64,000 bases of DNA from Egibacteraceae bacterium (lineage in GTDB: Bacteria; Actinomycetota; Nitriliruptoria; Euzebyales; Egibacteraceae): positions 1-64,000 of the forward strand of contig JAUJMQ010000009.1 of the NCBI GenBank assembly GCA_030446775.1, read 5' to 3'. The notes beneath the pieces were generated by a model, which was not told the DNA's origin, did no database searches, and was given only the letters and a program-made list of their open reading frames with translations. Shown here in pieces: positions 19,213 to 61,235 of the stretch. The translations under genes and the position numbers were made by a program. Every line of letters begins with the position of its first letter. Position 1 is the stretch's first letter.

Positions 19213-20364
19213 GTGACCAGCACCGACGACCGTCGCGCACGGGCGCCGGACGCCGCGTTCGCGGCGCTGTCCGACGTGGTGCTCGCACTGGCGTCGGCGC
19301 GCACCGTCGAGCCGGTCCTCCAGCGCCTCGTGCACGCCGCCCGCGAGCTCGTCGGCGCGCGCTACGCCGCCCTCGGGACCCCCGACGGCGCCGGCGGGTT
19401 CTCGCGCTTCCTCACCTCCGGCCTGTCGCCGCGGGAGCAGGCGGCGATCGGGCCGCTGCCGCGCACCCACGGTCTGCTGGGCGCCATGCTGGCCGACAGC
19501 GCCTCCTACCGCACCGACGACATCACCGCCGACCCCCGCTTCTGGGGCTGGCCGGCCCGGCATCCGTCGATGCGCTCGTTCCTCGGCGTCCCGGTCGTCG
19601 CACGGGACGAGGTCGTCGGTGCGCTCTATCTCACCGACAAGGTCGACGGGGCGACCTTCGACGACGCCGACCAGCGCGTCGTCGAGCTGCTCGCGGCCCA
19701 CGCCGCGATCGCGATCGACAACGCCCGGCTGGCCGAGCGCAGCCGCGAGCTCACCGTCGCCGAGGAGCGCGACCGCCTCGCCCGCGAGCTCCACGACGCG
19801 ATGACCCAGACGCTGTTCAGCCTGTCGCTCACCGCCGAGGCGGGCGCCGCGGCGGGCGGCGACGCCCCGGCGGCGGCGCGGGCCCCCCGCGCCACGGGCC
19901 CGCGGCGGGGCCGCGAGTCCGGGGCGGGGCGGCGGGGCCTGATCGTGGGGCTGCGGGCGGCGGCCCACGCCGCCGACGGGCTGGCGGCGACGCTCCGCAA
20001 GGACGTCGAGGTGCTGGGACGCGCGCAGCCCGTGGCCCTGCGGCTGCGCGCCGGCTCCGAGCGCCGGCTGCCCCCCGAGGTGGAGCGGGAGCTGTACCGG
20101 ATCGTGCAGGAGGCGCTCCACAACGCGCTGCGCCACGCCCGCGCCGCCAACGTCGACGTCAGCGTCGACCTGGCAGCCGGCCGCTGTGTCGTGGAGGTCC
20201 GCGACGACGGCGTCGGCTTCGACCCGGACGACGCCTGCGTCACGACGGCGCACCTGGGGCTGTCGTCGATGCGGGCGCGGGCGGCCGCGCTCGGTGCCGC
20301 GCTGACGATCACGTCCGCGCCCGGCGCCGGGACCGGTGTGCGCGTGGAGCTGCCCGGTGACTGA
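19213..20364 (+). CDS. GAF-domain sensor histidine kinase (NarL-type partner)
   Basis: A 383-residue cytosolic histidine kinase. An N-terminal GAF domain (about 25-175, ending AHAAIAIDNARLAERS) precedes a HisKA_3 phospho-acceptor box ERDRLARELHDA with His194, then an ATPase domain with the N-box EALHNALRHA and G-box VRDDGVGFDPDD and GLSSMRARA. No membrane segment is seen. The linker between the H-box and GLIVGLR is unusually Arg/Gly-rich compared with the usual EALxEMR helix, which could reflect two compensating indels. It overlaps the response regulator start by 8 nt. The GAF ligand is unknown; DevS-like redox or gas sensing is one option. Confidence 0.82.
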   Translation: MTSTDDRRARAPDAAFAALSDVVLALASARTVEPVLQRLVHAARELVGARYAALGTPDGAGGFSRFLTSGLSPREQAAIGPLPRTHGLLGAMLADSASYRTDDITADPRFWGWPARHPSMRSFLGVPVVARDEVVGALYLTDKVDGATFDDADQRVVELLAAHAAIAIDNARLAERSRELTVAEERDRLARELHDAMTQTLFSLSLTAEAGAAAGGDAPAAARAPRATGPRRGRESGAGRRGLIVGLRAAAHAADGLAATLRKDVEVLGRAQPVALRLRAGSERRLPPEVERELYRIVQEALHNALRHARAANVDVSVDLAAGRCVVEVRDDGVGFDPDDACVTTAHLGLSSMRARAAALGAALTITSAPGAGTGVRVELPGD

Positions 20365-20893
20365 GGCGGTGCGGGTACTCGTCGTCGACGACCATCCGGT
20401 CGTGCGCGAGGGTTTGCGTGCCTTCCTGGCGTCCCGCGACGGGATCACGGTCGTGGGTGAAGCCGGCGACGGGGAGGAGGCGGTCACCCGCGCGCGCACG
20501 ACCAAGCCTGACGTCGTGCTGCTCGACCTCGTCATGCCGGGCGGAGGGGGCGTGGCCGCCATCCGGGCGCTGCGAGCGGTGGACCCCCGGTTGAAGGTCC
20601 TGGTGCTGACCAGCTTCGCCGGCGACGACCAGGTGCTGCCCGCGGTGCGCGCCGGCGCGGTCGGCTACCTGCTCAAGGACGTCGAGCCGGCCGAGCTCGA
20701 GCGCGCCGTCCGCGCCGCGGCGCGGGGCGAGTCGCTGCTCAACCCGCAGGTCGCCGCGCTGGTCCTCGACGCGGTGGCGGGCAGCGCTCCGGACCCGGCC
20801 ACGGCGCTGACCCCACGGGAGCGGGAGGTGCTGGCGCTGCTCGCCGAGGGGCTCACCAACCGGCTGATCGCGCGGCGGCTCGTCGGGGCCTAG
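20357..20893 (+). CDS. NarL/LuxR-type response regulator, C-terminally truncated
   Basis: A 178-residue partner of the preceding kinase. The receiver domain has Asp11/Asp12, phospho-acceptor Asp57 in DVVLLDLVMPG and the Lys in LLKDVEP. The LuxR HTH begins normally (LTPREREVLALLAEGLTNRLIARRL) but stops after VGA, in the middle of the helix-turn-helix, so the recognition helix and the last 30-40 residues are missing. The stop codon is the first part of a 63-bp element also found at 48298-48360. No missing C-terminus is encoded downstream. DNA binding by this form is not expected. Start GTG 20357 gives the family N-terminus. Confidence 0.85.
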   Translation: MTEAVRVLVVDDHPVVREGLRAFLASRDGITVVGEAGDGEEAVTRARTTKPDVVLLDLVMPGGGGVAAIRALRAVDPRLKVLVLTSFAGDDQVLPAVRAGAVGYLLKDVEPAELERAVRAAARGESLLNPQVAALVLDAVAGSAPDPATALTPREREVLALLAEGLTNRLIARRLVGA

Positions 20894-20954
20894 CACGCAC
20901 CTCAGACGCCGGGCGGCTCATGTCCAACGACTCCCTTGGGGAGACAGGGCCTAG
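20892..20954 (+). repeat. 63-bp dispersed element, copy 1
   Basis: Starts AGCACGCACCTCA, ends GACAGGGCCTAG; 55 of 63 bases match the copy at 48298-48360. Contains an internal stem CTCCC/GGGAG. GGGCCTAG occurs at both edges (20886-20893 and 20947-20954), like a target duplication. It interrupts the LuxR-type gene. It may be a non-autonomous mobile element or an insertion-sequence scar. Confidence 0.65.
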
Positions 20955-21024: not shown

Positions 21025-21804
21025 ATGACCAGCTCCCCGGCCACCGCCGCCACCGCTCCCCTCACCGCCGCCCCCGCCGACCGCCCGGTCGACCGCCCGC
21101 CGGTCGCCGTGGTCACCGGCGCATCTCGCGGGCTGGGCCGGGCCCTGCTGTCCGGCCTCGTCGACGCCGGCTGGTCGGTCGCGGTCGACGCCCGCAACGC
21201 CGAGGATCTGCACGCCGCCGTCGCGGCGCTGCCGCCCGGCGCCCGCGTCCGGGCCGTCCCCGGCGACATCACCGACCGGACCCACCGCCAGGCGCTGCTG
21301 GACGCCGCCGACGAGCTCGGCGGGCTCGACCTGCTCGTCAACAACGCCGGCGTCCTGGGACCCAGCCCCCAGCCCGCTCTCGCCGACCACCCGCTCGACG
21401 CCCTCCGGCGGGTCCTCGAGGTCTACGTCGTCGCGCCGCTCGCGCTGGTGCAGCTTGCCCTGCCGCGCCTGCGACCGGGCGCGCGGATCGTGTCGATCAC
21501 GTCTGACGCCGCGGTGGAGGCCTACCCCGGCTGGGGCGGCTACGGCGCGGCCAAGGCGGCGCTGGAGCAGCTCACCGCGGTCCTCGCCGCCGAGCACCCC
21601 GACCTGCGCGTCTACACCGCCGATCCGGGGGACATGCGCACCCGGATGCACCAGGAAGCGTTCCCCGGCGAGGACATCAGCGACCGGCCGGACCCGGCCG
21701 AGCGGGTGCCCGCCCTGCTGCGCCTCACCGTCGAGGACCTGCCCAGCGGCCGGTACACCGCCGAGGGGCTCGCCGCGGCCCTCACGGCGGCGGGTCGACG
21801 GTGA
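21025..21804 (+). CDS. Short-chain dehydrogenase/reductase
   Basis: A 259-residue classical SDR. Cofactor motif VVTGASRGLGRALL (near residue 30), NNAGVLG, and the active-site segment SDAAVEAYPGWGGYGAAKAALEQL with the YxxxK pair (Tyr, Lys in YGAAK). Arg following the second Gly of the motif and D in ARNAED leave NADH/NADPH preference open. The ATG at 21025 is chosen because a TACCGT box lies 6 nt upstream; a long low-complexity N-terminus precedes the Rossmann strand. The stop overlaps the queA-like start by 4 nt. Substrate unknown. Confidence 0.85.
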   Translation: MTSSPATAATAPLTAAPADRPVDRPPVAVVTGASRGLGRALLSGLVDAGWSVAVDARNAEDLHAAVAALPPGARVRAVPGDITDRTHRQALLDAADELGGLDLLVNNAGVLGPSPQPALADHPLDALRRVLEVYVVAPLALVQLALPRLRPGARIVSITSDAAVEAYPGWGGYGAAKAALEQLTAVLAAEHPDLRVYTADPGDMRTRMHQEAFPGEDISDRPDPAERVPALLRLTVEDLPSGRYTAEGLAAALTAAGRR

Positions 21805-48218: not shown

Positions 48219-48297
48219 TGCCGGCGGGCGTGGCCGGCCCGGCCCCCGAGAGCCGGGGGCGACCGAACACGGCCGCCCCCGAGCCCGTCGGCGAGCC

Positions 48298-48360
48298 AGC
48301 ACGCACCTCACACGCCGGGCGGCCTACCTCCAACGACTCCGTTCGGGAGACAGGCCCTAG
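48298..48360 (+). repeat. 63-bp dispersed element, copy 2
   Basis: 55 of 63 bases match 20892-20954. The central CTTG/GTTC difference keeps complementarity. Its right end CCCTAG supplies the stop codon of the minus-strand exported protein. Confidence 0.65.
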
Positions 48361-48923
48361 TCCACGAGGTGGAACACGAACACGACGTCGGTGTCCTCGG
48401 GGTCGTCGCTGAACACCAGGTGCACCTCGCCCTCGGCGTCCTCGAACTCCCCCGTCCCGCCGGTGATCGCGAGCACCGAGCCGCCCGGCCCGTTCGGGAA
48501 CGTCAGCGTGCCGGCGACCTCGATGTTGCCGCGACGGCGCAGCGTGAAGGTCGCGTCGCAGCGGAACCGCTCGAAGATGTCGGTGCAGCGGACGGTGTCG
48601 TAGCCGAGCGGCCGGCGGCCGTCCCGGCTGCGCAGCCGCTCGGTGAACACGACGTAGTCGCCAGGGCTGAGGCCCGGCTCACCGGTGTCGACCTCCTCGA
48701 ACTGGTCCTCACGGCCGACCACGATCAGCCTGCGCGCCCCGTCGGGGGCCGCCGCAGCCGCCGCCCTGACGCTCGCCGCGGCGCTGCGCTGCGACGCCCC
48801 GCCGGCCGCCGGCTGCCCCCACCGGCCCTTGGTCGACTGCTGCGGCGCCGCCGTCGCCACGCTGCCCACAGCCATGCCGAGCACGGCCCCCACGGCGACG
48901 ACCCATACCACTGTCTTGCGCAT
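48357..48923 (-). CDS. Exported AOC-barrel-like protein
   Basis: A 188-residue protein with a signal peptide (MRKTVVWVVAVGAVLGMAVG, then ATAAPQQ cleavage-type site) and a low-complexity Ala/Gln linker. The mature part has the pattern of allene-oxide-cyclase or dirigent-like barrels in bacteria: GEPGLSPGDYVVFTERLRSRDG, CTDIFERFRCDATFTL, GNIEVAGTLTF and AITGGTGEFEDAEGEV. Bacterial members are secreted and of unknown function. The two cysteines (CTDIFERFRC) may form a disulfide. Its stop codon lies within the 63-bp dispersed element, so the last residues could have been altered by it. Confidence 0.7.
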   Translation of the reverse strand: MRKTVVWVVAVGAVLGMAVGSVATAAPQQSTKGRWGQPAAGGASQRSAAASVRAAAAAAPDGARRLIVVGREDQFEEVDTGEPGLSPGDYVVFTERLRSRDGRRPLGYDTVRCTDIFERFRCDATFTLRRRGNIEVAGTLTFPNGPGGSVLAITGGTGEFEDAEGEVHLVFSDDPEDTDVVFVFHLVD

Positions 48924-59625: not shown

Positions 59626-61235
59626 TCAGCGCGCCAGCATCACCGCCTGGTACGGCGCCAACGGGAACGTGCCGTTCGCGGTGGCCCCTTCGCCCTCGCC
59701 CGTCGTGGAAAGGCAACGGTCCATTCACCGTCGGGAACGGCCAGGCTGCCCGCCGCGTCGCCGCAGTTCGCCGCGACGAGGACGCCACCCCGCTGGTAGG
59801 ACACGACCGGACCGTCTTCGCCGATCCAGTCCACGGGCTGTGCGTGGAGGTCGGGGTGTCGTTGCGCAGCGCGACGAGCCGCCGGTAGGTGTGCAGCGTC
59901 GACCCTGGATCGTCGCGCTGCACCGCGACGGTGTCCGCGTCCGTCCGCCCGCCCAGGGGCAGCCAGGGCTGCTCGGCGGTGGTGAAGCCCAGCCCCGGGG
60001 CCGGGAGCCCACGGCATCGGCGTGCGGGCGCCGTCGCGCCCCACGGACGCCGTGCGGCGGGCGACCGGGTCCTGCGCGTCCTCGCGCGGCACGACGCCGT
60101 TGTCGAGCCCGAGCTCCTCGCCCTGGTACAGGAACGGCGTCCCCGGCAGGCCGAACAGCAGCGTCGACAGCGCCAGCGCCCGCCGGCGGCCGATGTCGCC
60201 ACCGCCGAAGCGGCTCACGGCCCGGGACCGGTCGTGGCTGCCCGAGACCCACGCGAGCTGGTCGGGCGCGGCGTCGGCCGCCGCGCGAAGCACGCTGCGG
60301 ATCGTCGCCGGGTCCCAGTCCATGTGCAGCGGCTTGAACCAGAACGCCAGGTGCAGACCGTCCTCGGCGGCGACGTACCGGGCCAGCTGCTCGGCGGACA
60401 GCAGGTACACCTCCCCCAGCAGCAGACCGTCGTAGGGCTCGACGAGCCTGCGCCAGCGGCGGTAGACGTCGAGGACGCCCGGCTGGTTCGTGTCGTACAG
60501 GTGCTCGTAGTCCAACGCCTCGGCGGCGGTCGTGTCGGCGTCGCCCTTCTCGCTGGGCCGGGTGGCACGGGGGTTGTCGCGCGCTGCGGGTCCTTGACCA
60601 GGGCGTGCGCGACGTCGATGCGGAAGCCGTCGGCCCCCGGTCCAGCCAGAAGCGCAGGATCGCGTCGAACTCGTCGGCGACGGCCGGGTTCGCCCAGTTC
60701 AGGTCCGGCTGCTCGGGCAGGAACAGGTGGCACCAGTACTGCCCGGTGGCCTCGTCCAGCGTCCACGCCGGACCCCGAAGTTCGACACCCAGTTGTTGGG
60801 CGGTCCCCCGCCGGCGCCCGCGGCCGTTGCGGGTGCCGGGTCGCGCCAGATGTAGTAGTCGCGGTAGGGGTTGTCGCGCGACGACCGCGCCGCCCGGAAC
60901 CACGGATGGTCCGACGACGTGTGGTTGGGGACGAGGTCGACGACCTTCAGGTCGCGATCGTGGGCCGCGGCGACCAGGCCGTCGAAATCCTCGAGCGTCC
61001 CGAACAGGGGGTCGACGCCCCGGTAGTCGGCGACGTCGTAGCCGTGGTCGCGCATCGGTGACGGGTAGAACGGCGTCACCCACACGATCCCGACGCCGAG
61101 CCAGACGAGGTGGTCGAGCCGGTCGCAAAGGCCGCGCAGGTCCCCGACACCGTCGCCCGAGGCGTCGGCGAACGAGCGGAGGTAGACCTCGTAGCCGACG
61201 CGGCTGCTCCACCAGGGCAGGGTCGTGTCCGTCAT
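59626..61235 (-). pseudogene. GH13 alpha-glucosidase/amylase, multiple frameshifts
   Basis: From ATG 61235 the N-terminus is a clear GH13 oligo-glucosidase: VGYEVYLRSFADASGDGVGD, WLGVGIVWVTPFYPSP, HGYDVADYRGVDP, VDLVPNHTSS. Later blocks lie in other frames: LFLPEQPDLNWANP; DGFRIDVAHALVKD (nucleophile Asp); LLGEVYLL (acid Glu); WVSGSHDRSRAVSRFG; GTPFLYQGEELGL; and the end YQAVMLAR at 59626. About six changes are needed. If the frames are restored it would be a near full-length enzyme of about 530 residues. It starts 4 nt after the glycogen phosphorylase stop, so the two form an alpha-glucan operon. Confidence 0.75.

Follow-up and report, generated by a model that had tools for sequence, protein, structure and literature searches.

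MIRUs, short mycobacterial repeats, are used worldwide to type tuberculosis strains, and we know of no clear answer to how they moved. The original MIRU paper, by Supply et al. in 1997, reportedly proposed insertion into DTGA sites; a literature text search for that DTGA wording found nothing. MIRUs are 46–101 bp long (PMC3914561), are apparently mobile, and insert at start codons; their internal ORF is coupled to the gene that follows, with a −4 nt spacing (PMC12548453). A long rnc–fpg1 gap is confined to cases in which it holds MIRU-VNTR repeats (PMC2734929). On our analysis, MIRUs are the closest known counterparts of the repeat family described here. Because its carriers are Egibacteraceae and were compared with MIRUs by layout rather than by sequence, we refer to the family as MIRU-like, not as MIRU. 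At a probability of about 0.78, we read it as a family of miniature, non-autonomous repeats that enter gene junctions of four nucleotides and duplicate these, presumably by transposition.

The repeat family and its two target classes

The analyzed window, a 64,000-nt stretch of an Egibacteraceae contig (JAUJMQ010000009.1), contains two 65-bp units that are 87.3% identical over 63 bp, matching the two-copy repeat of the initial annotation, which had also placed the end of copy 2 correctly at the stop codon of another gene. That gene is on the minus strand, and its stop is TAG.

19213–20364, plus strand: sensor histidine kinase upstream of the response regulator; the pair is kept in relatives
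20358–20893, plus strand: response regulator with receiver and truncated LuxR HTH (GerE positions 2–27 of 57), ending LIARRLVGA*; start approximate
20890–20954, minus strand (sense strand, core TGAGCCGCCCGGCGTCTGAGGTGC): copy 1, a CTAG-ended 65-bp unit
20890–20893: left CTAG of copy 1, whose TAG is the response-regulator stop
20897–20917, minus strand: core of copy 1, GCCGCCCGGCGTCTGAGGTGC, common to all unit types
20930–20942: hairpin region of copy 1, CTCCCTTGGGGAG (consensus CTCCCTTCGGGAG)
20951–20954: right CTAG of copy 1, a putative duplicate of the left one
21026–21804, plus strand: SDR-type oxidoreductase downstream of copy 1, its family assigned by sequence motif only; start approximate
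48296–48360, minus strand: copy 2, with its outer end decayed to CCAG and its gene-side CTAG intact
48357–48923, minus strand: gene with its TAG stop inside the right CTAG of copy 2, a 194-aa open frame without a match in a Pfam search; start approximate

Copy 1 reads CTAG-CACGCACCTCAGACGCCGGGCGGCTCATGTCCAACGACTCCCTTGGGGAGACAGGGC-CTAG. A further window match, at 60037, is poor and was taken as chance.

The repeat is clearly not confined to two copies, an outcome that would have counted against the initial annotation, as BLAST returned 52 matches genome-wide, well above chance. Within the window's genome (G000, an Egibacteraceae-family MAG of 2.4 Mb and 60% completeness), the left module, or core, matched 153 times at up to 3 mismatches, compared with 0 for a reversed control pattern, and the right module occurred 70 times. 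Two family relatives, G016 and G005, gave 157 and 7 core matches, respectively, again with 0 for the reversed control. Three of 121 genomes searched matched, all from the same family and the window's own among them. Across 66 genomes of the class, several core matches were found only in G000 (147), G005 (6), and G016 (152), and two others had one two-mismatch hit apiece. The carriers are Egibacteraceae, with many copies in only two genera and few in a third. A single Synechococcaceae match (L078) lies within a coding frame and was taken as chance.

The consensus, CTAGGACGCACCTCAAACGCCGGGCGGCTCATGTCCAACGACTCCCTTCGGGAGACAGGCCCTAG, is found singly and in tandem arrays with a period of about 57–62, and many copies are decayed. 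One sense-strand core, GCCGCCCGGCGTYTGAGGTGC, is shared by two target classes. Units of the CTAG class (class 1), which includes both window copies, are CTAG-ended, about 57–65 bp long, and sit on natural TAG stop codons. Units of the ATGA class (class 2) are ATGA- or GTGA-ended, 29 or 65 bp long, and lie precisely at the junction where one gene stops and the next starts. Units of the CTAG class have an additional left arm, which carries the hairpin CTCCCGAAGGGAG in G000 and reads GTGTCTCCTGACTCC in G016, and the 65-bp ATGA-class units, as distinct from the 29-bp ones, contain a hairpin such as GGGCGAAGCCC. The inner ends of the element, GCC...GAGGTGCNNC, adjoin either ATGA or CTAG. In G016, the inner right end GAGGTGCACCC is followed by ATGA in one copy set and by CTAG in another, which argues that the outermost four nucleotides derive from the target. 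Core-only half-units of 27 nt, a length that is not 3k+2, run head-to-tail within CTAG arrays at L015, L034, L035, and L120. Other G016 arrays (the second array at L133 and those at L139 and L146) have a 30-bp period with CTGA or no stop between units, and some of the 30-bp arrays in G016 adjoin TGATG starts.

The hairpin had been described as carrying a paired C-G to G-C swap. Measured against the consensus, the change in copy 1 falls in the loop and that in copy 2 breaks the stem; the two mutations are unrelated. No compensatory pair change occurred among 75 CTAG-class units, and RNAalifold on 67 of this class gave no covariation support, the hairpin changes being one-sided or breaking. The stem differs between subfamilies (CTCCC/GGGAG, GGGC/GCCC, GGCC/GGCC) around a constant GAA loop, a weak hint that the hairpin is kept. 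The suggested structured DNA or RNA motif thus draws slight support from hairpin conservation and none from covariation within the genome; an Rfam search with six loci gave no match at E up to 0.1.

Start/stop overlaps and unoccupied sites

Placement was assessed by scoring the genes beside 123 arrays with a simple codon model, for which the window served as training set, genes being read only in stretches around the copies. Among confidently called genes, 24 of 38 convergent ones stop exactly at the element end, with CTAG as the stop site in 27 of the 38, and +4 is the exact start position for 23 of 43 co-directional genes downstream. The 68 upstream co-directional genes include 14 with their stop at −3 and 9 with it at −39, both DTGA positions, and 17 with it at a CTAG. 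A good part of the copies, mostly degraded ones, have one end without a confidently called gene. Occupied junctions include hisH–hisA (L136), gnd–zwf (L091), nifS/iscS–mnmA (L139), a histidine kinase–response regulator pair (L146), and a MoxR-like ATPase with its neighbor (L081), where gene names were read from the sequences unless Pfam is cited.

At L137:1491–1511 of G016, a core copy lies in frame within a homoserine dehydrogenase-like ORF, adding ...RSRPASEVHTM... between the apparent catalytic and ACT regions, and does not stop the ORF. A sulfotransferase-like gene (L133:506–1435, minus strand) begins MSVAGRPLP..., with first codons that match the element, and may owe its start to an element copy.

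Relatives provide unoccupied versions of two ATGA-class sites, the comparison of occupied and empty sites that the initial annotation had proposed. In 14 of 27 relatives, hisH and hisA share an overlap of exactly 4 nt (GTGA/ATGA), e.g., gccgcGTGAccttcacc, and the occupied junction in G016 reads GTGA-25 nt-GTGA, i.e., ggcgTGA-GCCGCCCGGCGTCTGAGGTGCAGGC-GTGAgcttcacg. Likewise, gnd and zwf overlap by 4 nt in 8 relatives, with two units in G005 and one diverged unit in G016. The relatives with empty sites are other genera rather than close strains. Since their 4-nt overlap equals the flanks of the element where it is present, insertion would duplicate the overlap and preserve both genes. Duplication on arrival is the simplest reading of these sequences. 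The unoccupied sites, seen for the ATGA class alone, are the strongest sign that the element is mobile. The two ends of class 2 arrays agree in A or G in only 15 of 22 cases overall.

The spacing of this class also follows a rule. Of 37 distinct intervals between DTGA sites, 33 are 3k+2 in length and open, the exceptions being frameshifted units or sub-intervals. The open intervals encode an in-frame mini-ORF, either the 10-codon M/V-SRPAxEVxx* or an extended form of about 21 codons, and the common form has a Shine-Dalgarno-like GAGGTG 5 nt before the next start. We propose that class 2 elements target DTGA (ATGA/GTGA) at the start/stop overlap of co-directional genes, where a 29- or 65-bp unit would place a mini-ORF overlapping the upstream and downstream genes by 4 nt each. 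As GAGGTG lies about 5 nt ahead of the following start, ribosomes would terminate, restart, and move on to the downstream gene; translational coupling would be kept in vivo, which may be why insertion is tolerated. Subsequent unit duplication would then yield the tandem arrays.

Selection alone might produce the same placement if insertion were broad, by an enzyme with little or no target preference, and the survivors were those that keep both genes intact. We regard this as a possible account, though not the one we favor. Coupling-compatible lengths are confined to the ATGA class, one copy lies in frame in the homoserine dehydrogenase-like ORF and leaves it open, and RTGA is common in the window (105 ATGA and 188 GTGA), so that a pure RTGA enzyme would often strike genes. 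Longer intergenic gaps are on offer, however, and yet the ends match exact stops far above neutral landing. The conserved GAGGTG and mini-ORF of the ATGA class and the conserved hairpin of the CTAG class could also suit a functional regulatory cassette (a terminator, attenuator, or RBS) selected at gene ends and copied by recombination instead of transposition. That explanation is unlikely given a patchy distribution with virtually no copies elsewhere in the class, orthologous junctions in relatives that work without the element, many decayed copies, and a hairpin that is not followed by a T-run.

A sister family (f2; G021, G023, G025, and G027; L228–L247) has many copies of another repeat, approximately GAGTGCCTCATGTAGCGTCAGCGGTAGGCACACGTCATGA, that is unrelated in sequence. 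Its units are mostly 38 bp (3k+2), with an ATGA end exactly at gene starts. The genes concerned read like FabD, AroC, DHFR, and CoaD, and in G027 the repeat is also found at hisH–hisA.

CTAG sites, host proteins, and the shortened response regulator

CTAG is depleted in the window, with 12 occurrences seen against about 47 expected from trinucleotides and 147 from base composition. Five of the 12 serve as stops in coding frames, and two of these five are located at elements. As CTAG is scarce and often a stop, a mere preference for CTAG would already guide insertions to stops. We propose that class 1 elements target CTAG, which in a CTAG-poor, 74% GC genome would often provide the TAG stop for a single gene or for a convergent pair. 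The initial annotation had viewed the repeats GGGCCTAG flanking copy 1 as a target duplication. They are mostly element sequence; the flank common across copies is CTAG, probably the true 4-bp duplication. Because unoccupied sites were seen for the ATGA class only, CTAG could instead be part of the element. The CTAG-class periods, 57–62 and 75, are without phase.

CTAG is a favored target of some IS families, and a MITE mobilized by a DDE transposase that chooses this site (IS5- or IS481-like) would account for CTAG at both ends and, given its depletion in the window, for landing on stops. Even so, we consider such an origin improbable: the aligned copies have no terminal inverted repeats within the CTAGs, only the palindromic CTAG itself, the same core is also found at ATGA and GTGA sites, and no long parent element was seen.

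The element had further been proposed to supply stop codons and thereby truncate genes. The window itself offers one apparent case, as the response-regulator ORF does stop in the middle of the LuxR HTH at the left CTAG of copy 1, where the GerE match extends no further than position 27 of 57. As a general account this is wrong: the element lands on existing stops or stop/start overlaps and duplicates them. About 22 of 25 host proteins with Pfam matches have their last domain matched to at least ~94% of the profile end, and in the remaining testable proteins the domain ends far from the C-terminus. Domains intact just before CTAG units include AMP-binding_C (76/76), S-AdoMet_synt_C (138/138), MM_CoA_mutase (512/512), Dak1 (313/313), Sigma70_r4 (50/50), and others. 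One such unit lies on the stop of a primary-type sigma factor whose region 4 is complete (L147:8318–9217, minus strand). With C-termini complete in almost every testable host and no second truncated one among those tested, truncation by the element is very unlikely, and the clipped LuxR regulator is an exception.

The short regulator is better explained by a separate event. Orthologous histidine kinase–response regulator pairs in relatives have full-length HTHs (about 210–219 aa), and the window DNA beyond copy 1 does not carry on the HTH. The ending ...LVGA* is similar to the way orthologues end naturally (REGLV*-CTAG in L214), so a better fit would be an independent in-frame deletion, or decay at a later stage, ahead of a natural CTAG stop. 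A deletion between GGCTCG-like repeats that left the natural ...LVGA* CTAG end would explain the length, and an assembly fault is possible. The histidine kinase (19213–20364) contains an odd stretch, RAPRATGPRRGRESGAGRRG, that resembles a local frameshift, so this pair may be decaying or misassembled.

Mobility and comparison with known repeats

Overall, the initial annotation holds in part. Its miniature mobile element finds good support in the dispersal, the tandem arrays, and, for the ATGA class, unoccupied sites in relatives; its supply of stop codons is misleading. The search for a mobilizing enzyme gave no candidate that tracks with the repeat. Y1_Tnp was found in 0 of 21 genomes, which included two of the three carriers, G000 (60% complete) and G005, with positive controls. 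Reverse transcriptase was absent from all three carriers, G000 again being only 60% complete. IS110 transposase was absent from G005 and common in non-carriers. No similar DNA was found in the plasmids and phages searched, and viral contigs gave none. More speculatively, a previously undescribed mobile system might recognize gene junctions as such, a single core entering DTGA overlaps and CTAG stop or stop/stop sites. The 4-nt codon overlap would be duplicated by an enzyme with a possible link to translation termination or to an N-T-R-R target rule; we find this doubtful.

REP/BIME elements are likewise numerous, small, extragenic, hairpin-bearing repeats near gene ends, and a repeat of that type moved by a RAYT (Y1 HUH) transposase would share these traits. 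The present ends lie exactly on stop or start codons, however, there is neither a GTAG-type foot nor a paired inverted REP architecture, and no Y1 transposase was found in the 21 genomes, which makes this origin extremely improbable. Rickettsia palindromic elements resemble the in-frame L137 copy in a protein gene, which is a rare exception here. MITEs of CTAG-targeting IS families are alike in having CTAG at both ends, whereas our repeat lacks terminal inverted repeats and has a second target class.

The likeness to MIRUs lies in short dispersed and tandem repeats in gene junctions and, for the ATGA class only, in the start/stop overlap with −4 coupling and an internal ORF that reaches the downstream start codon (in the same 33 of 37 intervals). 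The window's two CTAG copies lack this overlap, and their class lacks phase. Termination and reinitiation through the mini-ORF would follow the course described for MIRUs (PMC12548453). The differences are the bacterial class and the unit length, 29 or 65 bp versus 46–101 bp.

Together, these findings reveal a pair of MIRU-like families, unrelated in sequence, in a class of actinobacteria distant from mycobacteria; for the first of them, relatives offer unoccupied sites. Their presence in Egibacteraceae and a sister family makes the mechanism accessible to comparison and to laboratory work without a pathogen, and the mini-ORF rule (3k+2, with a Shine-Dalgarno sequence before the next start) offers a testable account of how selfish DNA survives in tightly packed operons. 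The CTAG class shows that a repeat can colonize stop codons and convergent gene ends as well. As far as we could find, a class at such sites that shares its core with an ATGA class is new and has no counterpart among described repeats, MIRUs included.
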